A DNA stretch of 40,104 nucleotides from a virus: positions 1 to 40,104 of the IMG/VR virus record IMGVR_UViG_3300037541_000361, one strand, 5' to 3'. The notes below the pieces were generated by a model. The model was not told the DNA's origin. It searched no databases and saw only the letters and a program-made list of their open reading frames with translations. The position numbers were made by a program, and so were the translations under genes. This document shows, one piece after another, positions 3-34,895 of the stretch; within the stretch, counting starts at the first letter, position 1, and each line of letters begins with the position of its first letter.

Positions 3-1322
3 AAGAGCGAGTTTGATCTGGCCCTGGCCCGGCTCGAGCGGGCAGTGCTGCGCAGCATCGAAGCCAGCAACGATCGCGTGGCAGTCCACGAGATGCTTCT
101 CCATCTGGTGGTGGGCGGCAACGCGCTCATGTACCTCGGCGAGAAGGGGCTGCGCTGCTACCACCTCAACCGCTACGTGCTGCGGCGTGACCCTATGGGC
201 AACCCCCTGGAGGCGATCGTCTGCGAGGAGCTCTCACAGGAGAACCTTCCCGAAAAGGTGAAGTTGCTGCTTGAGGAAGAGGACGGCCCTACCGCAGGGA
301 TTGAAGACGACGACGACGGCCCTGAGTACGAGCGCACCGTCAAGCTCTACACCCACGTCGAATGGGAGGGCGAGAAGGTCACCTGGTATCAGGAGGTCAA
401 GGACAAAGAGATCCCTGGCACCAAGGGCACGGCCTCAATCAGCGAGTCGCCCTGGCTGGCCCTGCGCATGTACCGCATCGACGGGCATGACTATTCACCG
501 GGCTACGTCGAGGCTGCTTGCATGGCGGACCTGCAGACCGCCGAAGCCCTGAGCCAGGCCATCGCCGAGGGCTCCCTGGTCAGCGCTCAGGTGAAGCACC
601 TGGTCAAGCCCAGCGGAGTGGCCAATCCCAAGAAGCTGGCTGAGGCCGCCAATGGCGCGTTCCTCCCTGGCAACCCCGATGACGTCACCACCATCACGGT
701 GGGCAAGGCACAGGATCTGAGCGTTGCGATGCAGGGCCTGGCCCGGATCGAGGCTCGTCTGGCTCAGGCCTTCATGTTGGCCGACATGCGGGACGCGGAA
801 CGCGTGACCGCGGAAGAGGTCCGCTTGCAGGCGCTGCAGACGGAACAGTCCCTCGGGAACATCTACGCCATCCTCACCACCGAGTTCCAGCAGCCCTACG
901 TGGCACGGAAGCTGGCGCTGCTGGTGCGCAAAGGCCGGCTGCCGAAGCTGCCGAAAGAGCTGGTCAAGCCCGTCGTAAGCGTGGGCCTGGCTGCTGTTGG
1001 CCGGGGCAACGACCTGGAGAAGACCGCCAGGTTTATGCAGATCCTGCAACAGTCGCTCGGCCCTGAAGGGATCGCCACCTACGTGATGCCATCCGAGCTG
1101 ATCCGCCGGCTCGCTGCCTCGATGGGCATGGACATCATCGGCCTGGTCAAAACCGACGAGCAGCTGGCTGCGGAACAGCAGCAGCAACAGCAGATGGCCA
1201 TGGCTCAGCAGGCCATGGCAAGCGGCATGGCTGATCCACAGAAGCTGGCCAATGCCGCTGCCACTGCACAGGAGATGGCAGCCCCACCTCCTGAACAACC
1301 ACCAACGGAACAACCCGCATGA
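3..1322 (+). CDS. Portal (head-tail connector) protein, 5' end missing
   Basis: Portal protein of the T7 gp8 type, the dodecameric ring through which DNA enters and leaves the capsid. The reading frame is open from base 3, so the gene starts upstream of the window; about 440 residues are visible against 536 in T7 gp8. The visible part is charged and helical, with a Gln/Met/Ala-rich C-terminus (a run of glutamines near 1179-1194) and a Pro/Glu tail, as in cyanopodovirus portals. The stop overlaps the next start as ATGA. Position directly before scaffold and capsid supports the call. There is no recognisable catalytic motif; the identification rests on gene order, size and general likeness. Confidence 0.85.
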   Translation, partial: KSEFDLALARLERAVLRSIEASNDRVAVHEMLLHLVVGGNALMYLGEKGLRCYHLNRYVLRRDPMGNPLEAIVCEELSQENLPEKVKLLLEEEDGPTAGIEDDDDGPEYERTVKLYTHVEWEGEKVTWYQEVKDKEIPGTKGTASISESPWLALRMYRIDGHDYSPGYVEAACMADLQTAEALSQAIAEGSLVSAQVKHLVKPSGVANPKKLAEAANGAFLPGNPDDVTTITVGKAQDLSVAMQGLARIEARLAQAFMLADMRDAERVTAEEVRLQALQTEQSLGNIYAILTTEFQQPYVARKLALLVRKGRLPKLPKELVKPVVSVGLAAVGRGNDLEKTARFMQILQQSLGPEGIATYVMPSELIRRLAASMGMDIIGLVKTDEQLAAEQQQQQQMAMAQQAMASGMADPQKLANAAATAQEMAAPPPEQPPTEQPA

Positions 1323-8154: not shown

Positions 8155-10974
8155 ATGGCTGACAAGATCCTTCCCTTCGGTCAAGTCAATCCGGTCGCCA
8201 GGCCTATTGGGGCTTTCGTTCAGGCAGCCGAACGGAACATTGCAGCACCTGCCAAGCCCGCGCTGCTAGGTGCACCAGATGGCATCACAACGATGCAGAT
8301 GGGCAGCGGCGGCAGCGTGCAGGGCTTCAACCAATACCAGCAGCTGGCAACTGCTCTGAGCCCCTTTGCCGAAACCCTCGTTGACGCAGGGGCCCAGGGC
8401 TACATGTCGTATGCCAAGGGCAAGATCGACGAGGGCTATTACGACCAGCTCAAGCAGCTGAAGAACCAGCAGGCGAAAGCGGCTCTGAGCCTGCAGGTCC
8501 AACAAGAGCAGGGTGCGGCCAACGCTGCGGCTCAGGTCAACCAGCTGCAGAAGGTTGATCCTGTTGCCTCGCAGCTCTTGCAGGACTCCAACCCCTGGAG
8601 CCTGATTGGTCGGCGCCGGGCCATGGCGCAGATGGCCGCGTCTGAAGTTGACGATGCGCTGCTGAACGATCTGGCAGTCAACGCCGGTGTCCGCGCTGGC
8701 GTGGCACCAGGTAGCGGAGAACTGGTCAAGCAGAAAGCTGCCATCACCAGCAAGGTCATGGCCACTTATGGCCTGACGGGAGATGAGCTGGAGAGCCAGT
8801 TCTATGTGGTGCCGGCCATCAACAAGGCATGGGAGACCTACACCGAACAGCACCGCAAGCTCTGGAACGAAGAGACGGCCCGCACGACGACGGAAGCCAC
8901 CGGTGGTGCTGTCAACGGAGCATTGGCGCAAATGCTGAGGAACGGGGTGACCCTGGCTGATGGCTCAGTGGTCACTCGCACTGACTCACGGTTCAACGCC
9001 CTGGCTGGCCTTGTCTTGACCGATCAGATCGACAAAGGCCTTCGGCTGCTGGCGGGCGACAAGAAGAAAGATGCAATGCAGCAGGTCTACGGCAACCTCG
9101 CACTGCTCAGCCGCAACCCGGCGATTGAAGGAATTGTCCGCGAAATCCGCGTTGGCAGCCCCAACGACCCTCTCGATAAGCGGCCGCGGTTCATTGATGC
9201 CAACCCTGTTCAGCTGCTGGAGATGCAGAACAAGGGGTTGCAGCTGACAACCCAAAAGTTCGAGCTGAAGCAGAAGGATCTAGGCCAGCAGATGGACGCC
9301 TTCTACTACGGCAAGGACGGCCCCGGGTATCCGGGCGTTGTTGTTGATTCAGAGGACTACCAGCGGCGCCTGATTGCCGCCGAGAACTATGGGCTGCGGC
9401 TTGGCTATCTGGACATACACAACTACCTAAGCGACAAGGCATCTCAATCTCAGAAATTTGCCCAAGCCGCTTACAGCATGACGGCTGAGGAACGAGCGGC
9501 TGTAGAGAACTGGATAGACAACCTTTCACCCGATGCATTGTCGCCCAAGAACATCGGCCGAGTTCGGGCCCAGGCCGATGCTTACGCAATGCGCGAAGGC
9601 ACAAGCGAGGCCAGAGAGCAGCGTCGGCAGAAATTGCAGACCCGCATCAACGAGCGCGAAAAGCTGTTCAACGACATGCCCGAGGGTCTGTTCGGCCAGA
9701 TCAAGGGTGAGATCAAGCAAGACATGGGCCTTGGGCCCATCAAGTCTTTGGACCCCAAAGGCGAGGCCATGTCGCTGCTGCTGCAGCCCGGCATGACGGT
9801 GGGAGGCGCCATGAGCGCTGCCCCCAACAAGCTCGCCGCCTTTGCAATCGATCTGGAGAACCTGTACGTCCGCCAGGTGATGGCTGGCATGAACGCCTGG
9901 CGGAAGGAGAACCCCGGCGTGGGTCGCATCCCGCCTTCTGCCCAGAACGTCATCGTCAGCCAAGCGGTGGCTGCGGCCCGTAAATCGCCTGAGTACGCAC
10001 GGATCTATAGCCAGGCCACAGGCATGAACCCTGGGGAGGTCGGCCAGGGGTCGGTGGGTACAGGGCCGAAGCAGGGCACCAAGCCTGGCCCTGACGTGCG
10101 CGGTGTTGATCGCAGCAAGGCCGGCAGCATCCCCGACTCCACCGTCAAGGCCTATCAAGCGCGGCCTGTGATGAGCAAGCCCTGGCTGCACTCAGAGCTA
10201 CAGAGCCTCAACAACGGCAAGCCAGCCAGCCCAGAGCTCTACAACCTTGCTCGTCGCGCCAATACGTCAACGACTCGCTATCTGCTCGAGCAGATGACCC
10301 GCTTCTATCCCGACATGGATCGGGATGGAACCATCTCCAAATACCTGCAACAGCAGCTGATCCGCGAGCGGCAAGGCAAGACCATCTCCAGCGCCAACTA
10401 CAGCAGCCTGGGCCTCGGCATGGTCCCGACTGGATACAACAGCTTCTCGCCAGGCAGCTGGCTGATGCAGATGATCATGCCGCCAGCAGCTGCGGCAACT
10501 CTTCCGCCTGAATACAGCAGCGGTGGCACCCAGCCCTATGTGGCCACACGCTCCTCTGGTGGCCGCGGCGGTAATGGTGGGCCCGGCTGGGACAACGTTG
10601 TTGCTATGGCCCGGGCGAAGGGGGCCAAGTTCCCAGAGCTGGTCGCTGCTCAATGGGCACTGGAATCCGATTGGGGTCGAGCGACAAGTGGCCGCAACAA
10701 TTACTTCGGCCAGAAGGGTTCTGGCACACGCAGGAACACCTGGGAAGTGGTGGATGGCCGCCGGGTAAATACCACCGCCAGCTTCATGGACTTTGCCAGC
10801 CCCAGCGAGAGCGTCGGGTATCTGGTGAGCAAGTGGTATCAGGGCCGCAACGGAGCCAATCAAGCCCAAACAGTTGAACAAGCAGCGCGGATCCTGAAGC
10901 AGCAGGGATACGCCACTGATCCCGAATACGTGAACAAGTTGCTGCGCATCATCCGTAGCAACAGGAGGCCTTGA
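8155..10974 (+). CDS. Internal core protein (gp15-like) with C-terminal glucosaminidase
   Basis: 939-aa core protein in the gp15 position (T7 747). The first 650 or so residues are Gln/Ala-rich helical core sequence. The last 130 form a FlgJ/LytG-type glucosaminidase: WDNVVAMARAKGAKFPELVA, then AAQWALESDWGRA with probable catalytic Glu837, then NNYFGQKG and a FASPSESVGYLV segment. It would cut the peptidoglycan glycan strand during DNA ejection. In T7 the wall-cutting domain is a transglycosylase at the N-terminus of gp16, so both enzyme type and location differ. The gap to the previous gene is 3 nt. Confidence 0.88.
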   Translation: MADKILPFGQVNPVARPIGAFVQAAERNIAAPAKPALLGAPDGITTMQMGSGGSVQGFNQYQQLATALSPFAETLVDAGAQGYMSYAKGKIDEGYYDQLKQLKNQQAKAALSLQVQQEQGAANAAAQVNQLQKVDPVASQLLQDSNPWSLIGRRRAMAQMAASEVDDALLNDLAVNAGVRAGVAPGSGELVKQKAAITSKVMATYGLTGDELESQFYVVPAINKAWETYTEQHRKLWNEETARTTTEATGGAVNGALAQMLRNGVTLADGSVVTRTDSRFNALAGLVLTDQIDKGLRLLAGDKKKDAMQQVYGNLALLSRNPAIEGIVREIRVGSPNDPLDKRPRFIDANPVQLLEMQNKGLQLTTQKFELKQKDLGQQMDAFYYGKDGPGYPGVVVDSEDYQRRLIAAENYGLRLGYLDIHNYLSDKASQSQKFAQAAYSMTAEERAAVENWIDNLSPDALSPKNIGRVRAQADAYAMREGTSEAREQRRQKLQTRINEREKLFNDMPEGLFGQIKGEIKQDMGLGPIKSLDPKGEAMSLLLQPGMTVGGAMSAAPNKLAAFAIDLENLYVRQVMAGMNAWRKENPGVGRIPPSAQNVIVSQAVAAARKSPEYARIYSQATGMNPGEVGQGSVGTGPKQGTKPGPDVRGVDRSKAGSIPDSTVKAYQARPVMSKPWLHSELQSLNNGKPASPELYNLARRANTSTTRYLLEQMTRFYPDMDRDGTISKYLQQQLIRERQGKTISSANYSSLGLGMVPTGYNSFSPGSWLMQMIMPPAAAATLPPEYSSGGTQPYVATRSSGGRGGNGGPGWDNVVAMARAKGAKFPELVAAQWALESDWGRATSGRNNYFGQKGSGTRRNTWEVVDGRRVNTTASFMDFASPSESVGYLVSKWYQGRNGANQAQTVEQAARILKQQGYATDPEYVNKLLRIIRSNRRP

Positions 10975-25590: not shown

Positions 25591-25628
25591 GAGAGCCCTC
25601 CCACATCCGAAGACGCAGAAGGGCTCTC
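25591..25628 (-). promoter_or_regulatory. Hairpin over the large-terminase ribosome site
   Basis: Perfect 9-bp arms, GAGAGCCCT and AGGGCTCTC in the mRNA sense, separated by 20 nt. The 3' arm ends three bases before the terminase ATG and overlaps the GGGAGG ribosome-binding sequence, so folding would hide it. No U-tract follows, so a translational control hairpin is more likely than a terminator. Confidence 0.5.
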
Positions 25629-25698
25629 CCAACAACCACCACCAGAAGCAAGTCCTGGCGGTGTGCTTCCCGGCACCACCCGGGTGAGCACCACAACC

Positions 25699-25971: not shown

Positions 25972-26346
25972 TCATTCCAGTGAGTCCTCAAATTGCTGCC
26001 ACAAATGGCCGCGGCGTTTAGGACCACCAACCGATGCCAGGAATGGGTTGATCAAGAAGTACGTCTCCCCGGTTCTGCGATCCGCTACACGCCGCACCAG
26101 GTTCTCCTTCCGCAAGCGGGTGATCGCACTCACCGCTACCGGCAGCTTCACCTGCAACCGCTCAGCGATGTAGCTGGTCGTCACATGGGCTCTCCCGCTG
26201 CGCCAGTTGACGTAGTTCAAAAGCACCAGGAACACCGCTGCATCCCGCAGCTCCAGCTTCCGTTCACCCAACAGGGCAATGGTCGAATCGAGATCGCGCT
26301 GGTGGACCATCACGAAATTCTCGTCACCGTCTTCTCTAGGCTTCAT
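25972..26346 (-). CDS. Winged-helix DNA-binding protein, RepL/MarR-like
   Basis: 124-aa protein with a winged helix: ELRDAAVFLVLLNYVNW, VTTSYIAERLQVKLPVAVSA (helix-turn-helix), ITRLRKENLVRRVADRRTGE (recognition helix and wing) and YFLINPFLASVGG. The last motif, NP after the wing, is reminiscent of RepL-type plasmid replication proteins, so it may be a replication initiator; a MarR-like repressor is the alternative. A near-perfect palindrome lies 34 nt upstream of its start and a second long inverted repeat just beyond, which suggests autoregulation. It is the first gene of the leftward transcript that includes the large terminase. Confidence 0.7.
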   Translation of the reverse strand: MKPREDGDENFVMVHQRDLDSTIALLGERKLELRDAAVFLVLLNYVNWRSGRAHVTTSYIAERLQVKLPVAVSAITRLRKENLVRRVADRRTGETYFLINPFLASVGGPKRRGHLWQQFEDSLE

Positions 26347-26379: not shown

Positions 26380-26401
26380 ACCTAGGAGTCACTCCCTAGG
26401 T
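26380..26401. promoter_or_regulatory. Palindromic operator candidate before RepL/MarR-like gene
   Basis: Arms ACCTAGGAGT (26380-26389) and ACTCCCTAGGT (26391-26401) around a central C, symmetrical but for one extra C. It begins 34 nt upstream of the divergent-side gene start at 26346. The half-site CCTAGGAGT recurs in the perfect palindrome ACTCCTAGGAGT at 30429. Confidence 0.55.
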
Positions 26402-26631: not shown

Positions 26632-26702
26632 TTTCCCGTTTTTGGGTCGCGCGATGTGATGGCGACCTATTTCCCGGTTTTGGGTCGCGCGATGTGATGG
26701 CG
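26632..26702. repeat. Two 33-bp direct repeats, 38-bp period
   Basis: Copies at 26632-26664 and 26670-26702 differ at one base and are separated by ACCTA. The core is GGGTCGCGCGATGTGATGGC, which includes the 8-bp palindrome TCGCGCGA. The 38-bp period is not an exact helical multiple. No other copy was seen in the window. Candidate iterons of an origin, paired phage-RNA-polymerase promoters, or repressor sites. Confidence 0.8.
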
Positions 26703-27157: not shown

Positions 27158-27175
27158 CCAACAACCACCACCACC
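27158..27175 (+). promoter_or_regulatory. CA-rich leader, copy 1
   Basis: CCAACAACCACCACCACC, ending 13 nt before the ATG at 27189. No Shine-Dalgarno is present. Closely similar leaders precede the genes at 27690, 28760, 29174 and 30811. Likely an unstructured translation-promoting leader. Confidence 0.6.
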
Positions 27176-27188
27176 TGCCACTAGGGCT

Positions 27189-27614
27189 ATGACAATCCTG
27201 CGCAGCACTGAGGAGTTCGGCCGGTTCCGGCTGACGGCTGACGTGATCACGGCCGAGAGCTGTGAAGCTGGCGACGCTGCTGAGCGTGGCTGGCTGACCA
27301 GCTGGGGCTGTTTGTCTGATGAGTACGCAGACAGCTGCTGGGATCTGAGGGATCTGGCTGATCTATTTGGCAACTACTACCGGCCGGAGGGCGATGGCAG
27401 CACCCTGCCGCGGTGGCTGACGTTTGAGGCCAGCCACGACGATCTGATCAGCCCTTGCGATGGCTGGCGGTTCCTGGCTGATGAGTACGGGCCCGAGGGG
27501 GATGAGGAGGCCATCGGCGGAACCATCAGCGTCCACCGGCCGGACTGGATCACAGACGGTTCCTGGGCCCGCGTCTGCCGGCTGCTGGGCTGGCGGCCGT
27601 ACCGCTGGGCCTGA
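27189..27614 (+). CDS. Acidic, lysine-free protein of unknown function (141 aa)
   Basis: MTILRSTEEFGRFRLTADVI, then CLSDEYADSCWDLRDLADLF and ending RLLGWRPYRWA. By my count 27 Asp/Glu, about 13 Arg and no Lys, so net charge is strongly negative. The ATG at 27189 is chosen because the CA-rich leader sits directly upstream; a longer frame from 27126 would run through that leader. It is immediately followed by an ArdC-type antirestriction gene, so a DNA-mimic antirestriction or other anti-defence role is a reasonable guess, but no family was recognised. Confidence 0.7.
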   Translation: MTILRSTEEFGRFRLTADVITAESCEAGDAAERGWLTSWGCLSDEYADSCWDLRDLADLFGNYYRPEGDGSTLPRWLTFEASHDDLISPCDGWRFLADEYGPEGDEEAIGGTISVHRPDWITDGSWARVCRLLGWRPYRWA

Positions 27615-27616
27615 CG

Positions 27617-27650
27617 GCTGCACTGAGGGCCTGCGGGCCTTCTCTGCAGC
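27617..27650 (+). terminator. GC-rich hairpin between accessory genes
   Basis: Stem of 13 pairs in two blocks (GCTGCA with TGCAGC; GAGGGCC with GGCCTTC, one G-U) split by a 2x2 mismatch, loop TGCG. It begins two bases after the stop of the acidic protein gene and is followed by a CA-rich leader, not a T-run. Transcript-end or processing hairpin, by inference. Confidence 0.5.
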
Positions 27651-27659
27651 CCTCACAGC

Positions 27660-27689
27660 TGCCAACAACAACAACCACCACCGCCAGCC
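27660..27689 (+). promoter_or_regulatory. CA-rich leader, copy 2
   Basis: GCCAACAACAACAACCACCA and CCGCCAGCC lead straight into the ATG at 27690, and the first codons (ATGGCCACCACCACCACC) continue the CA pattern. No Shine-Dalgarno. Confidence 0.6.
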
Positions 27690-28673
27690 ATGGCCACCAC
27701 CACCACCAAGGCCCGCAAGGGCAGCAGCAAGGCCCGGAAGACGTACGACGGGCCCACAGCTGAAGAGAAGCTGTGCACAGCCTTGGTTGAGCTCCTGGAG
27801 AAGGGCGTCAACCCCTGGCGTCGTGACTGGGCACAGACGGGCCCTCAGGGCCAGCACCGGAACCTGATCACCGGCCAGCCGTACCGGGGCAGCAACCCTG
27901 CAGTGCTTGAGATGTGGGCCGCCTGCCGTGGGTTCTCCCTGCCGTTGTGGCTGGGGGGTGCTCAAGCCAAGGCTGAGGGCTGGCACCCGCGGAAGGGCTC
28001 TAAGGGCTGTTACGTGCTGAGGCCACAGCTCAACAAAAGAGAGCAGGAAGACGAGAACGGGCGGCCGGTGCTGGGCCCTGATGGCCAGCCCCTGATCAGC
28101 GCCTGGGTTTCGTTCAAGCCGGTTTGCGTCTTTAACGTCGCCGACTTGGTGGGCGGCACCCCTGAGGCTCAACAGGCCCTCGAGGCCCGCATCGCCGCGG
28201 CCCTGGGCGCTGTGGTGGTGAAGCCTGAGCCTGAGCGCCTGGCCGGTGCTGAAGCTGTGCTTGGTGCCTGGCCGGTGCCCACCACCTGGGCCGGTGATCG
28301 GGCTTTCTACAGCTCAGCCGCTGATCAAATCACCATGCCCACCCGGGCCCAGTTCTCAACCGCTGAGGGGCTCTATGCCACCTGGGCCCATGAGCAGGCC
28401 CACAGCACCGGCCACAGCAGCCGGCTGGGCCGCAAGCTGGGCTCAGGGTTCGGCTCTGCTGACTACGCCAGGGAAGAACTGGTGGCAGAGCTCGCCGCCT
28501 TCCTGATCTGTAACCGGCTGGAGATCAGCAGCTGCACTGAGAACCACGCCGCCTACCTGGGCAACTGGGCCGGGGTGCTCAAGGAAGGGCCCAAGGTGCT
28601 GTTCAAGGTGCTGAGCGATGCCACCAAGGCGGCCAACGCGATCTGTGGCCCTGACGTGATCGAAGAAGGCTGA
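27690..28673 (+). CDS. ardC: ArdC-type antirestriction protein
   Basis: 327-aa protein with the ArdC layout: an N-terminal ssDNA-binding domain (TALVELLEKGVNPWRRDW about residues 30-47, NLITGQPYRGSNP 58-70, a GWHPRKGSKGCYVL segment 97-110) and a C-terminal zinc metallopeptidase-like domain with TWAHEQAHSTGHSSRLG. His234, Glu235 and His238 form the HExxH motif; EELVAELAAF near 262-271 offers the third ligand. ArdC proteins protect incoming DNA from restriction, mostly on conjugative plasmids. Here it is in the accessory block after a CA-rich leader, with hairpins either side. The family call is firm; activity against a particular system is unknown. Confidence 0.92.
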   Translation: MATTTTKARKGSSKARKTYDGPTAEEKLCTALVELLEKGVNPWRRDWAQTGPQGQHRNLITGQPYRGSNPAVLEMWAACRGFSLPLWLGGAQAKAEGWHPRKGSKGCYVLRPQLNKREQEDENGRPVLGPDGQPLISAWVSFKPVCVFNVADLVGGTPEAQQALEARIAAALGAVVVKPEPERLAGAEAVLGAWPVPTTWAGDRAFYSSAADQITMPTRAQFSTAEGLYATWAHEQAHSTGHSSRLGRKLGSGFGSADYAREELVAELAAFLICNRLEISSCTENHAAYLGNWAGVLKEGPKVLFKVLSDATKAANAICGPDVIEEG

Positions 28674-28676
28674 CGT

Positions 28677-28722
28677 CTGCACTGGGCCCTTCCTGCCTGC
28701 GCCGCAGGTGGGCCCTCTGCAG
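28677..28722 (+). terminator. GC-rich hairpin after ardC
   Basis: Three-block stem: CTGCA (28677) with TGCAG (28718), GGGCCC (28684) with GGGCCC (28710), CCTGC (28692) with GCAGG (28704), 7-nt loop. It begins three bases after the ardC stop. Same CTGCACTG start as the hairpin at 27617. No T-run follows; a CA-rich leader does. Confidence 0.55.
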
Positions 28723-28736
28723 GCCTCACCGCCTGC

Positions 28737-28759
28737 CCAACAACCACCACCACCAAGCC
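28737..28759 (+). promoter_or_regulatory. CA-rich leader, copy 3
   Basis: CCAACAACCACCACCACCAA then GCC before the ATG at 28760; the coding start ATGACAACCACCACCAAG continues the pattern. No Shine-Dalgarno. Confidence 0.6.
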
Positions 28760-29131
28760 ATGACAACCACCACCAAGCCCCGCCAATGGGAGAAGAGCGA
28801 AGAGCTCGCAGCCATCAAAGAGCTGGCCGATTGCCTGGGGCCTGACAGCTACCTGGGCCCCTGGCTGGCCGATGCCCTGCCCTGGCTGGCTGATCAGCTG
28901 CGCTGTGATTACTTCCCGCAAAAAGCCCGGGAGATGGTTGAGGAGGCTGCCCGGGTGAGGGCTGAGGCCTGCTGCGATGCCATCGCCATGCGGCAAACAG
29001 CTTCGCTCGAGGCCCGCCGCCTGATGGAGAGCTGCCACGAGCTGAAAGACAAAGCAGCCGCAGAGGCAGAGGAGATCAAAGGGCGGGCATGGGAAGCCCT
29101 GCGGCAGGCCATGAAACAGCTCGAGAGCTGA
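28760..29131 (+). CDS. Unknown helical protein (123 aa)
   Basis: After MTTTTKPRQWEKSEELAAIK it continues ELADCLGPDSYLGPWLADAL and a long Ala/Glu/Arg-rich helix to the C-terminus (AAEAEEIKGRAWEALRQAMK). No membrane segment, no known motif. It stands alone between two CA-rich leaders in the accessory block downstream of ardC. The coiled-coil C-terminal half suggests an oligomer. Function unknown. Confidence 0.7.
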   Translation: MTTTTKPRQWEKSEELAAIKELADCLGPDSYLGPWLADALPWLADQLRCDYFPQKAREMVEEAARVRAEACCDAIAMRQTASLEARRLMESCHELKDKAAAEAEEIKGRAWEALRQAMKQLES

Positions 29132-29144
29132 CGGCCCTGACAGG

Positions 29145-29173
29145 CCACCACCAACAACCACCACCACCAACCC
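29145..29173 (+). promoter_or_regulatory. CA-rich leader, copy 4
   Basis: CCACCACCAACAACCACCAC followed by CACCAACCC before the ATG at 29174. A weak GGCC-CTGACA-GGCC hairpin (29133-29146) precedes it. No Shine-Dalgarno. Confidence 0.6.
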
Positions 29174-29356
29174 ATGAAGCCCGCTGACATCGCCACCGGT
29201 GCCATAGCGATCTGGGCCCTGGCCGCCCTCGCATGGCAGCAACCGCAGCCACCACAACAGCCGCGGCCTGCTGCTCACGCCATGCCTGCGCAGCCGTCAA
29301 ACGTTGACAGGCAGCTGCCAGATCGCCGCACCCTCACCCAGTTCCCTGGGCCGTGA
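29174..29356 (+). CDS. Small exported or membrane-anchored protein (60 aa)
   Basis: MKPADIATGAIAIWALAALA is a single hydrophobic helix, then a Gln/Pro-rich stretch (WQQPQPPQQPRPAAHAMP) and a polar tail. This is a signal anchor with a flexible periplasmic part. It resembles small lysogeny-conversion or superinfection-exclusion membrane proteins only in general form. Real-gene support comes from the CA-rich leader directly before its ATG. Confidence 0.55.
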   Translation: MKPADIATGAIAIWALAALAWQQPQPPQQPRPAAHAMPAQPSNVDRQLPDRRTLTQFPGP

Positions 29357-29393
29357 ACCCTGCCCGCGGCCCGTGCCTGCGCAGGGGCCACCT

Positions 29394-29410
29394 GCAGGGC
29401 TCTGCCCTGC
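29394..29410 (+). terminator. GC hairpin between accessory genes
   Basis: Perfect 7-bp stem GCAGGGC (29394-29400) and GCCCTGC (29404-29410), loop TCT, in the 71-nt gap after the small membrane gene. No T-run. Another GC palindrome CCTGCGCAGG lies just before (29376-29385). Confidence 0.4.
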
Positions 29411-29427
29411 TTCACCCGAGAGATCCC

Positions 29428-29607
29428 ATGGACCACCTCTCACTCCGTGATCGGGTGGCGATCGCCAAGCGTTCGCCCCGCCGCATCACGATCACCATCA
29501 GCCATGCCGTTTCCGAACGGCTGGTGGCAACTGCCCTCGATCAGGGCCGCAGTGTTTCCAACCTGTGCGCCTATCTGCTCGAGACCGCATCGCCACCGGG
29601 GAGCTGA
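29428..29607 (+). CDS. Ribbon-helix-helix (CopG/Arc-type) DNA-binding protein (59 aa)
   Basis: After a charged start (MDHLSLRDRVAIAKRSPRR) comes ITITISHAVSERLVATALDQ then GRSVSNLCAYLLETA: a beta strand of alternating residues, helix, Gly turn, helix, the standard ribbon-helix-helix pattern. Such proteins bind DNA as dimers and act as repressors or antitoxins. No toxin gene pairs with it clearly; the next gene (29657) is acidic and unlike known toxins. The ATG at 29428 is chosen as it leads directly into the domain; a longer frame to 29353 is Cys/Arg-rich and unlikely. Confidence 0.75.
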   Translation: MDHLSLRDRVAIAKRSPRRITITISHAVSERLVATALDQGRSVSNLCAYLLETASPPGS

Positions 29608-29615
29608 TGAATCAC

Positions 29616-29648
29616 GGGCAGCGCCTGCGCGTTGCCCTTCCTTTTCTT
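29616..29648 (+). terminator. Intrinsic terminator after ribbon-helix-helix gene
   Basis: Stem GGGCAGCGC (29616-29624) with GCGTTGCCC (29629-29637), one G-U pair, loop CTGC, then TTCCTTTTCTT. It begins nine bases after the stop. It ends 8 nt before the next ATG, so it could also act as an attenuator for that gene. Confidence 0.75.
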
Positions 29649-29656
29649 GACGTGCC

Positions 29657-29917
29657 ATGCCAACACTGACAAGCAAAGCCCTCCACCAGTGCAGCGCCGT
29701 GCTGAACTTCGACATCTCTGCAGAAGAGGCCGACCTGCTGGCATCACTGCTGAGGCCACGGACCCATCTGTTGACCGACCTGCTGGAGATCCAGGTGTTC
29801 TCTTGCCCTGAGGGCTGCACTGACTGGGCTGATACCGCTGAGGCCCTCGAGGTGGCGACCACAGCCCTGCTCAAGGTGCGGAACATCCAGTCTCAATACG
29901 AACGGGAGGGCAAGTGA
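29657..29917 (+). CDS. Unknown acidic protein (86 aa)
   Basis: MPTLTSKALHQCSAVLNFDI, then SAEEADLLASLLRPRTHLLT and EGCTDWADTAEALEVATTAL. Helical, acidic, soluble. The stop overlaps the GTG start of the following winged-helix gene (GTGA), so the two are co-translated and may work together, for example as a regulator and its partner. No family recognised. Confidence 0.65.
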   Translation: MPTLTSKALHQCSAVLNFDISAEEADLLASLLRPRTHLLTDLLEIQVFSCPEGCTDWADTAEALEVATTALLKVRNIQSQYEREGK

Positions 29918-30327
29918 ATAGCACTGCCGACGTGGCCCAGTTCCTTGGGGCTCTCAGACAAAAGAACCGAGTGGTGCCGATCGAGATAGCTGAAGCGCTG
30001 CTGCTGATTGCTGCAGGGATCGACAACATCCCTGACTTGCAGCGGGCGATGTGCGATGCCGAGGGCAACTCTCTGCCACCAGCAACCGTGAGCCGGCTGA
30101 TTGCCTCACTGCGGGGCAAAGCCCGCTACCACCAAGGGACTTGGGTGGAGAGCCCGTATTCCCTGCTGGATGTGCGGCCGCACCCGCATCGCCGAGGCCT
30201 CCAACTGCGGCTGAGTGCTGTAGGTCAGGAGCTCATCAGCGCGTACTTTGACCACTACAAAGCCCCTACAAACCTAGTAGTGGGTATGTCCACCTGCGAC
30301 GAGAAAAGCCAGTGTCAGTCTGCCTAA
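29914..30327 (+). CDS. MarR-like winged-helix regulator (137 aa)
   Basis: GTG start overlapping the upstream stop. An N-terminal helical part (VPIEIAEALLLIAAGIDNIP), a helix-turn-helix (LPPATVSRLIASLRGKARYH), then a wing SPYSLLDVRPHPHRRGLQLR and LSAVGQELISAYF, the MarR order. The second half aligns by eye with the regulator at 30458 (TVSR core; SLLDV/ALLEV; LSAVGQELI/LTAKGKALV), so the two are probably paralogues. Likely role: lysogeny control next to the integrase. Confidence 0.75.
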   Translation: MNSTADVAQFLGALRQKNRVVPIEIAEALLLIAAGIDNIPDLQRAMCDAEGNSLPPATVSRLIASLRGKARYHQGTWVESPYSLLDVRPHPHRRGLQLRLSAVGQELISAYFDHYKAPTNLVVGMSTCDEKSQCQSA

Positions 30328-30428
30328 TCGCTTCGGTCGAACTGCCTTGCCGCGGCTCCTGGACTGGGTTCTCTGTCTACCTTGAGACGCTGGGCCAGAC
30401 CCATCGCGTCTTTCTCCACCGGTGCCAC

Positions 30429-30440
30429 ACTCCTAGGAGT
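30429..30440. promoter_or_regulatory. Perfect 12-bp palindrome before second regulator
   Basis: ACTCCTAGGAGT, centre CCTAGG, 17 nt before the ATG of the MarR-like gene at 30458. Its half-site is the same as in the palindrome at 26380-26401 before the RepL/MarR-like gene. Candidate operator. Confidence 0.5.
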
Positions 30441-30457
30441 CGCCGCCGCTACGGCCC

Positions 30458-30775
30458 ATGGATTTACGTCAGCTGGAGAGGGCTCTGGCTGCTTTCTCCG
30501 TTCTCAGTCCAACGGCGTTCCCGATCCACCATGCGGAGGTCTTCCTGGTGGTCGCTCAACGCGGCCAGGCGACCTATCGGGAGTTGGAAGAGGCCCTGAA
30601 CCTGTCCAACTCCACCGTGTCCCGGACGGTTCACGCCTTGGGCGAGACGCACCGCAAGGGATACGACGGGCACGCCTTGCTTGAGGTCGTGCGCGATCCA
30701 GAGGAAGGGCGCCGTTTTGTGATCCGCCTGACCGCCAAGGGCAAGGCCCTGGTGCGGCAGATCGAGGGGCTCTGA
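30458..30775 (+). CDS. MarR-like winged-helix regulator (105 aa)
   Basis: MDLRQLERALAAFSVLSPTA, then FLVVAQRGQATYRELEEALN, helix-turn-helix LSNSTVSRTVHALGE, wing ALLEVVRDPEEGRRFVIRLT and AKGKALVRQIEGL: a compact MarR fold. A perfect palindrome lies 17 nt upstream, fitting autoregulation. It is directly upstream of the integrase gene and paralogous to the regulator at 29914. Likely part of the lysis-lysogeny switch; which of the two is the repressor cannot be told from sequence. Confidence 0.8.
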   Translation: MDLRQLERALAAFSVLSPTAFPIHHAEVFLVVAQRGQATYRELEEALNLSNSTVSRTVHALGETHRKGYDGHALLEVVRDPEEGRRFVIRLTAKGKALVRQIEGL

Positions 30776-30782
30776 ACCCTCG

Positions 30783-30810
30783 CCACAACAACCACCACCA
30801 CCACAATCCA
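30783..30810 (+). promoter_or_regulatory. CA-rich leader, copy 5 (integrase)
   Basis: CCACAACAACCACCACCACC followed by ACAATCCA before the integrase ATG at 30811. No Shine-Dalgarno. Confidence 0.6.
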
Positions 30811-31809
30811 ATGGCAGGCACTGTCCGCAAGGCCTCAGACGGCAGCTGGATTGCTGACGTCACCATCAATGGGGTCCGCCGTACTGGCAAATGCAAAAGC
30901 CGATCCGAGGCGCTGGCGCGCAAGCGTGAGCTGCTCGAGCTGCTGGTGCAGCGCGATGCAAAGCCCGCTGTGGCCCCGCCGTTCACCTTGAAAGAGGCTC
31001 GAGCGTTATCCCTACGCATCCGATGGGCAGGCACCGCCTACGAGCGCACAGCGGCCATCTACAGCCACGAGGCCGTGGATTACTTCGGGGACTACTTCCC
31101 CATCAGTGAGATCACCGCTGCTCTGGTGGATCAGTGGCGGCAGAAGCTGCTGGCCAAGGGCAACCGCCCCAGCACCGTCAACCGCAAGGTCTCAGCCATC
31201 AGGGCGATGCTCTCGGACGCTCACCTGCACGGTCACCTGCAGGAGGTGCCGCGGATGCCGCAGCAGCTGAAGCTGGTGAACACCAAGGACCGGGTGATCA
31301 GCGACGAGGAGCGCGATCGTTTCTGCCACTACTTCCGGCAGGTGGGGGAGCCCGCCGCGGCCGACCTGCTGGTGTTCCTGCTCGAGACCGCCTGCCGATG
31401 GGGCGAGGCCGAGCGGGTCAAGGGTCAAGACGTGGACCTGGTGAAGGGGAAGGTCACCTTCTGGGCCACCAAGAACGGCAAGCCCCGGTCAGTGCCGCTG
31501 ACCCGCCGTGCGATCGAGGCCATCGAGCCCCACCTGCCAGCGGTTCCAGGCCACCGCCTGTGGCCGTACAAGTACACCCGCTATCAGCACCTGTTCAACC
31601 TGGCCAAGGGGGCCCTGGGCCTGGCTGAGGACCGTGCCCTGTCCATCCACACCACCCGCCACACCTGCGCCAGCAAGCTGGCCAGCAAGGGCATCCCGCT
31701 GCACCAGCTGATGACCTACGGGGGATGGACTTCCCTGGCTTCTGTGCAGCGATACCTGCACCTGCACACAGATGCCCTGTCGGCTTGCGTTGCAGCGCTG
31801 GAGGCCTGA
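30811..31809 (+). CDS. int: Tyrosine-family site-specific integrase
   Basis: 332-aa integrase. An N-terminal arm-binding domain (GTVRKASDGSWIADVTINGV) is followed by a SAM-like core-binding domain (about 60-155) and the catalytic domain: Arg196 in ETACRWGEA, Lys221 in WATKNGKPRSVPL, His280 and Arg283 in HTTRHT, Trp306 in GGW in place of the usual His, and nucleophile Tyr315 in SVQRYLHL. All catalytic positions are present, so it should be active. It catalyses recombination between phage and host attachment sites and marks the phage as temperate or recently so. A tRNA-like half 520 bp downstream may be the attachment site. Confidence 0.95.
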   Translation: MAGTVRKASDGSWIADVTINGVRRTGKCKSRSEALARKRELLELLVQRDAKPAVAPPFTLKEARALSLRIRWAGTAYERTAAIYSHEAVDYFGDYFPISEITAALVDQWRQKLLAKGNRPSTVNRKVSAIRAMLSDAHLHGHLQEVPRMPQQLKLVNTKDRVISDEERDRFCHYFRQVGEPAAADLLVFLLETACRWGEAERVKGQDVDLVKGKVTFWATKNGKPRSVPLTRRAIEAIEPHLPAVPGHRLWPYKYTRYQHLFNLAKGALGLAEDRALSIHTTRHTCASKLASKGIPLHQLMTYGGWTSLASVQRYLHLHTDALSACVAALEA

Positions 31810-32483: not shown

Positions 32484-34895
32484 TTGAAACCCAAAATCGC
32501 CGCGTCCACCCCGGTGGACAAACTGCAGCAGCAGAGGGAAGCGAGGGAACTCGAGCGGGCGAAATGGGACGCAATCAATCAACGAGCCAAGCTGCAAGCT
32601 ATAGGCCGGGAGAGCGTTACCGAATACGGAACGGCCCTTTTTACGGATAACGCTGAGCGGGTCACGATTGCTCTGGGCCTGCTGCTGGAGGAGCTGCTCG
32701 CTAATCCATCCAAACCGGGCCCGTACTTCAGTGCCTGGCCGCTACTGCTGATGGTCACGAATCGAGGCCCTCGTGCTCTGACTTCCATCGCAATCGGTGT
32801 CGTGTTGGATCACATCAGCCAGCGGCCCACGGAACGGAAGCTGGCGGGCGCCATCGGCACGGCCCTGCAGGACGAGCTCAAGGCGGGCCGGATCGAGAAG
32901 CTCAGCCCCGGCCTGCTGCGCATGATCCAGAAGCGCAAGGGCAGCAAGGCCCTGAGCTCCCGGCAGGTGCTGGACCAGCTGCGCCTGGACATCAGCGGCT
33001 GGACGGTGGCCGAGCGCACCCAGGTGGGAGGGCTGCTGCTGCAGGTGATCGCAGCCAACAGCGACCTGATCCGCTTCGAGACAAGCCTGAAGCACGGCCG
33101 CCGCCAGAAGTTGGTGGTCGCCACCGACGAGGCCCTGGCGGTGATCAAGGCCAACCCGCCAAGGCCCCTGCCTGCACGCCGCTTGCCAATGCTCGTGCCG
33201 CCGCGGCCCTGGACGGGGATGAATGGCGGTGGCCACCTGGACAACGACCAGCCCCTGGTGCGCAGCCGGGCCGGCCTGGACCTGAGCCACCTGACCCCTG
33301 AGGCGATGACCCCGCTGCTCAAGGTGGTCAACACCCTGCAGCAGCAGGAGCTGCGCATCGACCCGGAGATGGTGCAGCTGCAGCGCTGCGCCTGGGACCA
33401 CAACATCCGCGGCCTGTTCCCGCTGACCCGTGATCCCCTCACCGAGCCGCCGCGCCCGCAGGAGCTGCTGGGCCCTGAGGAGTACAAGCGTTGGCTGAAG
33501 CAGCGGGCCGCGGCCCAGTACGACCGCAACCAAGGCGCACGGATGCGCGGCCGGATTGAGGAAACACTGCGGCAGTGCGAGGAGGTGGCCGGCCAGCTCG
33601 TGTGGTTCGCCTACTGCCTGGACTTTCGCGGCCGCATCTACAGCAGCAACCGCTATGCCACGCACCAGGGCCCGGACTGGGAAAAAGGGGCGATCGGCTT
33701 TGCCGCAGGCGAGACCTGCTCAGTTGAGGGGTTCGAGTGGTTGCTCAAGGCCGCGGCCACCCACTACGGCATCAGCCGCACGTGGCATGAGCGCCTGCGG
33801 TGGGGGCAGGAACACCTGCAGCAGATGTGCACGGTGGCCGAGGCGCCACTGGATCGGCTGGAGCTGTGGCGTGATGCCAAAGATCCTTGGCAGTTCCTGC
33901 AGCTGTGCCGGGCTATTGCCCAGCAGGTGGCCGATCCAAACACCACATGTAGTGTCCCGATCCGGTTCGACCAGACCTGTAGTGGCATCGGGATTGCAGC
34001 GGCGCTGACCCGTGATCGCCGGTTGGCACGGCTGACCAACATCAACGGCTCAATCCGCAAGGACATCTACAGCCACATCGCCCAGGAGTTGCAGCGCCTG
34101 CTGCAGCTGGACCTGAGCAACGGCACGCCAACAGAAGTCCGCAACGCTGAGCTGTGGCTGGGCTTTGGCATTGACCGCAGCCTGTGCAAGGGGCCGGTGA
34201 TGACCACCATCTATGGGGCCCAGTTCCTGGGCATCGTCGATGGCCTGGTGCAGGCCCTGGAGGAACGGCAGGCCGGGCTGAACGTCTCGCAATGGGAGCA
34301 GGCCTACCTGGCACCGGCGCGTTACTTGGCCCGCAAGATCAGCCTGCTGCTGGGTGCTGAGCTCAAGAGCTGCCTCGAGCTGCAGGCCTGGCTGCGTGCC
34401 ATCTCTAAGCGGGTGCTGGCCAAGGGCGCCCCGATGCAGTGGACCAGCCCGATGGGGGTGCCGATGCAGATGGCCCACCAGCTGGATGCACGCACCAACG
34501 TTCAGACCCTCACCAAGGGCAGCCGCAGGTGGCAGGCATGGAACGACCAGGCCGACGACGGCGAGCTCTCAGCACGGATCACCAACCGCTCGATCACGGC
34601 CAACGTGATCCACCACTTTGACGCCGCCCACTGCCAGGCAATCGTCTCCATCTGTAGTGATCAATCGATTCCGGTCCTAACAAATCACGACTGCTTTGCG
34701 ACAATTCCGAGCCGTGCAGGGTGGTTGCATCAGTCCCTGCACAACCAGCTTCGGACCCTGTATGCAACCGATTGGCTGACGGAAATGTCGGCAGAGATCC
34801 GTTCGGCCGCAAGGGTTTCTAGGTTTAAGGCCCCGCCGATTGTCGGCGACCTGTGCCCCGGCGAGATCGGACAGAACCCACACTGCTTCTCTTGA
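32484..34895 (+). CDS. Single-subunit (T7-type) DNA-directed RNA polymerase
   Basis: 803 aa from TTG (T7 RNAP 883). All key motifs are present: LDFRGRIYS (379-387) corresponding to the DxxGR region, motif A IRFDQTCSGIG with Asp496, motif B DRSLCKGPVMTTIYGAQFLG with Arg565, Lys569, Tyr577 and Gly578, motif C NHDCFATIP with His735 and Asp736. It should transcribe phage genes from its own promoters; the CTGCAC-type elements are candidates. TTG at 32484 is used since the frame closes at 32427 and no ATG precedes the domain; GTG at 32514 is an alternative. No Shine-Dalgarno is seen, suggesting low translation. Confidence 0.96.
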   Translation: MKPKIAASTPVDKLQQQREARELERAKWDAINQRAKLQAIGRESVTEYGTALFTDNAERVTIALGLLLEELLANPSKPGPYFSAWPLLLMVTNRGPRALTSIAIGVVLDHISQRPTERKLAGAIGTALQDELKAGRIEKLSPGLLRMIQKRKGSKALSSRQVLDQLRLDISGWTVAERTQVGGLLLQVIAANSDLIRFETSLKHGRRQKLVVATDEALAVIKANPPRPLPARRLPMLVPPRPWTGMNGGGHLDNDQPLVRSRAGLDLSHLTPEAMTPLLKVVNTLQQQELRIDPEMVQLQRCAWDHNIRGLFPLTRDPLTEPPRPQELLGPEEYKRWLKQRAAAQYDRNQGARMRGRIEETLRQCEEVAGQLVWFAYCLDFRGRIYSSNRYATHQGPDWEKGAIGFAAGETCSVEGFEWLLKAAATHYGISRTWHERLRWGQEHLQQMCTVAEAPLDRLELWRDAKDPWQFLQLCRAIAQQVADPNTTCSVPIRFDQTCSGIGIAAALTRDRRLARLTNINGSIRKDIYSHIAQELQRLLQLDLSNGTPTEVRNAELWLGFGIDRSLCKGPVMTTIYGAQFLGIVDGLVQALEERQAGLNVSQWEQAYLAPARYLARKISLLLGAELKSCLELQAWLRAISKRVLAKGAPMQWTSPMGVPMQMAHQLDARTNVQTLTKGSRRWQAWNDQADDGELSARITNRSITANVIHHFDAAHCQAIVSICSDQSIPVLTNHDCFATIPSRAGWLHQSLHNQLRTLYATDWLTEMSAEIRSAARVSRFKAPPIVGDLCPGEIGQNPHCFS

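Follow-up and report, generated by a model that had tools for sequence, protein, structure and literature searches.

A/C-only leaders before unrelated accessory genes

The IMG/VR virus record IMGVR_UViG_3300037541_000361, analysed here over its entire length of 40,104 bases (the window; GC content 61%), has genes for an RNA polymerase of T7 type and for a tyrosine integrase as well as for tail-fibre, Gp2.5-like, exonuclease and terminase proteins. No Rfam families and no tRNA genes were found in the window. Among named phages, the isolate S-SRP02 of Synechococcus (MW822601; Autographiviridae; from freshwater in Singapore) is the nearest: its integrase and RNA polymerase are 82% and 66% identical to those of the window phage. 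We infer that the host of the latter is also Synechococcus. The present analysis concerns short tracts composed of A and C only, which in this phage stand directly before the starts of five accessory genes (ATGs at 27189, 27690, 28760, 29174 and 30811; Table 1).

The initial annotation had described a CA-repeat leader at these five genes, and both the positions of the tracts and the counts of their core word bear this out. The core, CAACAACCACC, which contains neither G nor T, was matched six times in the window, without exception on the + strand, while 0.02 were expected from dinucleotide shuffles and none of 100 shuffles contained six. Five of these copies stand 5' of the five ATGs, and the tracts to which they belong end 0 to 13 nt upstream of the start codon. 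A/C-only runs of at least 18 nt occur five times on the + strand and never on the - strand (0.18 expected). The continuation of the pattern into the first codons, claimed for two genes, was likewise seen. The five proteins belong to five unrelated families, and gene duplication does not account for the likeness. The tie between copies and genes holds for five copies only, as the sixth (25628-25644) has no + strand gene behind it. The genes at 29429, 29657, 29914 and 30458 of the same region lack the leader. Structural genes are generally without it too, as had been proposed, with the exception of the scaffold-type gene at 1319, which follows a copy of the shorter core AACAACCACC. This arrangement is repeated in S-SRP02 at 26329, and the portal identity of the upstream open reading frame (ORF) rests on comparison with that phage.

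Distribution in related phages and absence from hosts

Relatives were found by scanning IMG/VR for CAACAACCACCACCACC, followed by integrase, ArdC and RNA polymerase searches, which yielded about 16 related contigs. The many AT-rich IMG/VR matches to the 17-mer resemble coding low-complexity sequence and were set aside. L083 (GC 61%) contains a leader-like word, but its tail and integrase-type proteins are unrelated and the match was taken as chance. In S-SRP02 and the related contigs, 3-8 genes per phage are preceded by the core; in S-SRP02 these include the starts at 10903, 11692, 12103 and 13986. The text of the S-SRP02 paper (PMC8790148) contains no occurrence of promoter, Shine-Dalgarno, terminator or prophage, and 'repeat' occurs in its references only.

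The core statistics were obtained from 18 loci (321 kb), which are partly non-independent because W, L128 and L135 are close. In these loci, AACAACCACC was found 99 times on the + strand and twice on the - strand, whereas the mean for the 252 words made of five A and five C was 2.4. The expectation that CA-rich stretches might be just as frequent away from starts was not borne out: an ORF begins 0-25 nt downstream of 96 of the 101 AACAACCACC copies, as compared to 25% of random positions and 22% of other A/C windows. A separate count, restricted to ATGs that begin an ORF of 30 codons or more, gave 87 copies and 23 families. Two of these families were set aside, namely F9, a probably spurious one located behind the terminase copy, and the structural scaffold gene F10. 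The families include the integrase (16 phages), ArdC (15 phages), a DNA polymerase III beta-like protein (a label taken from the annotation of S-SRP02) and many small proteins of unknown function. The same core thus precedes about 20 unrelated families, in agreement with the earlier view of a portable leader rather than of duplicated genes. In L144 and L146 the leader is found at a minus-strand gene, where it reads in the gene's own sense. Each phage moreover has its own spelling of the tract, which marks it as a real, phage-specific start signal shared by these genes and not a coincidence, and the phages that carry it are integrase-carrying, T7-like phages of freshwater Synechococcus.

A host origin of the leader was rejected, since it is essentially absent from host-family genomes. 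The 14-mer CAACAACCACCACC has 11 matches in 151 genomes from the family of one cyanobacterial metagenome-assembled genome (MAG), and six of these matches come from a single MAG, on two small contigs with the phage genes. In host-family genomes without phage contigs, the core followed by ATG was barely commoner than a reversed control. Moreover, AACAACC was found at none of 260 starts in 400 kb of one host-family genome (GC 53%, not necessarily that of the host), and the mean Shine-Dalgarno (SD) energy of these starts was weak (-2.7).

More distant relatives (L152/L153, L251, L253 and L257) have kept the A/C tract, and added stretches that are purine-rich or SD-like separate it from the ATG, which fits a role at the start site. 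In the distant ArdC-bearing contigs L249, L251, L253 and L257, several genes are preceded by an A/C tract and, 3' of it, a purine-rich or SD-like stretch of the type ACACAAACAAAGG.. or CACCACCACAGGAG.., and this is possibly an older form of the leader.

Start sites without Shine-Dalgarno pairing

That the five starts lack an SD site, as previously noted, was confirmed by predicted pairing energies of -1.8 to +3.2 kcal/mol, which amount to none, while several other genes of the window reach -9 to -11 kcal/mol. The same difference was observed in S-SRP02, where the mean SD energy was -0.7 kcal/mol for leader genes and -5.9 kcal/mol for other genes (p=0.018). The start regions of leader genes are also more open: their mean unpaired probability was 0.70, compared to 0.44 for other S-SRP02 genes (p=6e-16) and 0.39 for random positions.

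Hairpins and concerted evolution of the leaders

Three findings of this and the following section go beyond the initial annotation: the hairpins, the concerted evolution of the leaders and the antisense terminase-gene copy. Most tracts are preceded by a stem-loop that ends within a few nt upstream, and the mean folding z-score of 81 leader-upstream stretches was -1.7 (-0.2 for random stretches). The two helices upstream of ArdC were examined in 16 phages, where 92% of the positions were paired and 19 double-change cells were counted, a result matched in 0 of 500 shuffles; helices slid along the alignment reached at most 58% pairing. At column pair 54-71 of this region the + strand carries the G.U pairs, which would be expected of a hairpin in mRNA.

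Diverged relatives use a spelling of their own on orthologues of the same genes. L152/L153 have CACCACCACCACC-GAGAGAGACC-ATG on five families, L132 has CAACCACCACCACC, and L154/L243 have CAACAACAACCAACCAA. Spelling was assessed on 44 genes of nine phages with 2000 shuffles. The mean likeness between leaders was 17.3 for different genes of one phage, 14.6 for the same gene across phages and 14.1 for different genes of different phages. The phage effect was matched in none of the 2000 shuffles and the gene effect in 306, whereas the reverse was true for the 36 nt just upstream, which hold the hairpin (gene effect 1/2000, phage effect 811/2000). Like the hairpin, the first 30 coding nt follow the gene. 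The phage effect on the leader persisted when L152, L154 and L132 were left out. As the leader follows the phage while hairpin and coding start follow the gene, the history of the tract differs from that of its flanks. Copying of the hairpin together with the leader was considered as a general cause of the likeness and rejected, because only five clear unit copies were found and hairpins otherwise follow the gene. Among these, whole units of hairpin, leader, ATG and first ACC codons stand before unrelated genes in L141 (6033/6429), L142 (9983/11037) and L133 (5802/6210). The leader most likely has a phage-specific component. Either selection by a phage-specific partner or gene conversion restricted to the tract would produce this homogenisation. 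The homogenisation suggests that some phage-specific factor or process reads the leaders or keeps them alike; the antisense copy in the terminase leader is one candidate and local gene conversion another.

A sixth copy at the terminase gene

Upstream of the minus-strand terminase gene, every main-lineage phage has an intergenic stretch that contains a hairpin, a tract, a spacer and a second hairpin. The second hairpin, at 25669-25684, shows a compensatory A-U/G-C pair and a loop that is almost invariant in 12 phages. The tract changes together with the leaders of its own phage: for five versions, the true assignment gave better complementarity than any other of the 120. In the sequence available, L144, L146 and L151 have leaders and no copy at this place. 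In the hairpin adjoining the tract, departures from pairing are A.C on the + strand and hence G.U on the minus strand (L132/L162 and L139/L141, and by eye L153). In this small sample, this suggests that the functional RNA is the terminase mRNA, in which the tract reads GGUGGUGGUUGUUGGG; this G/U-only tract adjoins a hairpin with GGAGG near the terminase start. A hidden + strand gene behind the copy was judged spurious, since S-SRP02 has a mini-ORF of only about 9 codons and three phages have an ORF of 89-104 aa that is antisense to a neighbouring gene.

Table 1. Leaders, hairpins and associated genes in the window.
Feature	Position	Strand	Remarks
Core AACAACCACC	1294..1303	+	Within the end of a portal-type ORF; 15 nt 5' of scaffold-type gene ATG 1319
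Hairpin between sixth copy and terminase start	25592..25627	-	GGAGG motif inside; terminase minus-strand ATG 25587-25585
Sixth copy CCCAACAACCACCACCA	25628..25644	+	No + strand gene; minus strand GGTGGTGGTTGTTGGG, in the terminase 5' leader, complementary to the five leaders
Second hairpin (CCCGGCACCACCCGGG on +)	25669..25684	-	CCCRG-CACCAC-CYGGG; conserved
CA leader 1 (CCAACAACCACCACCACC)	27158..27175	+	13 nt 5' of ATG 27189; adjoined by a hairpin of ACTGCTC..GAGCAG type
Leader gene 1, acidic protein, family F3	27189..27614	+	Members in L142, L143, L144, L176; no Pfam match
Hairpin A, 5' of ArdC, GAGGGCC-tgcg-GGCCTTC type	27625..27642	+	Covaries, 16 phages
Hairpin B, 5' of ArdC, GCAGC-cctcaca-GCTGC	27646..27662	+	Covaries (CG/GC switch, GU on + strand)
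CA leader 2	27662..27682	+	7 nt 5' of ATG 27690; ACC repeat resumes at 27694-27709
ArdC-like protein (ArdcN + MPTase-PolyVal)	27690..28673	+	E 5e-20, 4e-36
Hairpin GCAGGC-ctcacc-GCCTGC	28719..28736	+	Adjoins leader 3
CA leader 3	28736..28756	+	3 nt 5' of ATG 28760; pattern resumes at 28763-28776
Leader gene 3, family F11	28760..29131	+	Relative in L144
CA leader 4	29145..29174	+	Reaches the ATG at 29174 (0 nt)
Leader gene 4, small protein of 60 aa, family F7	29174..29356	+	
CA leader 5	30783..30806	+	4 nt 5' of ATG 30811
Tyrosine integrase, family F0	30811..31809	+	Leader retained in 16 phages
Single-subunit (T7-type) RNA polymerase	32484-34895		

Possible function of the leaders

On the basis of sequence comparison, we assign a probability of roughly 0.65 to the view that the phage encodes the tract as a leader that serves SD-independent translation starts at early accessory genes and would be insulated by the hairpin. 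The role in translation is suggested by the position of the tract, the lack of an SD site and the scarcity of structure. The element would then consist of a hairpin followed by an A/C-only stretch of 10 to 30 nt, a further 0 to 20 nt and the ATG. It may allow the host ribosome to start without SD pairing on non-structural genes, such as those for the integrase and ArdC, for the DNA polymerase III beta-like protein and for some 20 small families. The A/C-only stretch might keep the ribosome landing site single-stranded and thereby raise initiation, while the hairpin could insulate each gene or mark a point of RNA processing. Genes would join the set, or stay in it, by acquiring the leader. Several observations weigh against this view. 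Since the copy at 25628 has no + strand gene, not every copy is a translation leader, and some orthologues lack the leader altogether (29657 in the window, family F2). An A/C tract in a genome of 61% GC lowers structure by its composition alone, and openness is thus no proof of selection for initiation. Pairing with 16S rRNA received no support, as AACAACCACC ranked 188th among the 252 words of its composition. Lastly, the host does not use the leader as a general enhancer, because host-family genes lack it.

Alternatively, the tracts could mainly serve as targets for a phage-specific regulator that acts in trans on translation or mRNA stability and would be either the terminase-leader RNA or a CA-binding protein, an idea that we regard as unlikely although several findings point in its direction. 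The spelling is homogenised per phage independently of the flanking hairpin and the gene, and the copy flanking the terminase gene follows the leaders of its own phage and is kept in all main-lineage phages even though no gene lies behind it. Furthermore, the G.U departures on the minus strand are expected if that strand is the functional RNA, and the predicted duplexes with the phage's own leaders average about -31 kcal/mol. However, this complementarity follows automatically from one shared sequence, and a cause acting on the sense strand or at the DNA level predicts the same co-change. Moreover, the strand asymmetry amounts to about three independent changes, the L144/L146/L151 lineage, in the sequence available, has leaders without the terminase-gene copy, and no regulator protein was identified. 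In the RNA version, the terminase-leader RNA could pair with all leaders and switch off the early accessory genes. Such a one-to-many antisense switch, in which the G/U-only tract of the terminase mRNA would pair with all accessory A/C leaders of its own phage, seems improbable to us. If it did exist, expression of the packaging operon would silence the early accessory mRNAs or be gated by them, and the pairing would keep the leaders of one phage alike.

It is even less probable that the tracts are short homologies for the recombination of accessory genes and that their likeness is a by-product of exchange. The gene content between leaders does vary by phage, and whole units have at times been copied before unrelated genes (L141, L142, L133, L144 and L151), but the hairpins and coding starts beside the tract are not homogenised, the copies are short and variable in repeat number, and both the position and the strand of the tract are tied to the ATG. 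This strict placement on one strand at starts, common to about 20 families, also speaks against functionless drift of low-complexity sequence, that is, slippage of (ACC)n and (CAA)n in intergenic DNA and in threonine-rich N-termini. Repeat number differs between close phages (L154 and L243) and ACC codons continue two tracts, yet tracts are kept between phages whose terminases are 42-66% identical, and this explanation, already disfavoured, can hardly be credited. A transcription element, for example a promoter of the phage's single-subunit RNA polymerase, is very improbable as well. Such a polymerase is indeed encoded and the tracts recur before genes. On the other hand, they lie 3' of hairpins that form at the RNA level, 0-25 nt from the ATG and with variable spacing and repeat number, and the structural genes, which would be the expected targets of the polymerase, are without a tract.

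Comparison with known systems

Bacteriophage T7 has processing hairpins between its early genes, and these genes have SD sites. The phages studied here are T7-like and also have hairpins between early genes, but their leader genes are SD-free. The PeSL (promoter/stem-loop) cassettes of T4-type phages reportedly combine an early promoter with a stem-loop. Like the leader units, they are repeated between genes, contain a stem-loop and occur where gene content varies. No promoter was seen in the leader units, for which no promoter scan was made, and the constant part of the latter is the leader rather than the stem-loop.

In anatomy, the leaders are closest to the start-associated sequences (SAS) and extended SAS (ESAS) of cluster K mycobacteriophages. 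SAS are 13-bp repeats, GGGATAGGAGCCC, with an SD core (AGGAG) and one spelling across subclusters, and by the authors' account the ESAS repeats gave no support for RNA pairing (2011, PMC3203893; PMC12699233). Both systems involve a short asymmetric repeat a few nt 5' of unrelated, non-structural starts (here with the exception of 1319), almost always on one strand and absent from the host genome, apart here from the few matches described above. In both, many copies have inverted repeats immediately 5', a copy without a gene occurs rarely, and the function is unproven. The leader would thus work like SAS, but it is not a member of this group, because the defining sequence and the SD core are both missing: its core is the A/C-only CAACAACCACC, and its SD energies are those given above. 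In addition, the spelling of the leader differs by phage lineage whereas that of SAS is uniform, the hairpins are of RNA type and covary where tested, unlike the ESAS, and the hosts and phages are unrelated.

The downstream CA-repeat enhancer of Escherichia coli, (CA)n located 3' of the start codon, is a known stimulant of translation (Martin-Farmer and Janssen 1999, reviewed in PMC4611024). Like the leader, it is an unstructured, CA-rich sequence at the start site and may increase ribosome affinity. In contrast, the leader is of the (CAA)(CCA)n type, is repeated across the phage and lies mainly 5' of the start, with the pattern extending 3' of the ATG in two of the five leader genes of the window.

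With these leaders, T7-like cyanophages would provide a second case of start-associated sequences that extend across a phage, apparently independent of the first and lacking SD sites. Because the leader evolves with the phage, and the hairpin and the gene with the gene, the purpose of such elements becomes testable. A simple motif may also mark accessory (anti-host) genes in freshwater cyanophages, and the leader is a candidate for SD-free expression in Synechococcus.

Other signals in the control regions

The small protein encoded at 29429-29607 belongs to the conserved block 5' of the integrase; it looks ribbon-helix-helix-like by eye and has no Pfam match. Upstream of the MarR-like gene at 30458 lies the palindrome CTCCTAGGAG (30430-30439), which is kept in most relatives, sometimes slightly changed, and two CCTAGG cores are present in the divergent control region at 26381-26400. 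Taken together, these features are likely to represent a repressor/operator pair of these integrase-carrying phages. Lastly, the non-coding control region at 26632-26702 contains two direct copies of TTTCCCG(T/G)TTTTGGGTCGCGCGATGTGATGGCG, with a related copy near 10369 in S-SRP02, which are candidates for a promoter or operator.

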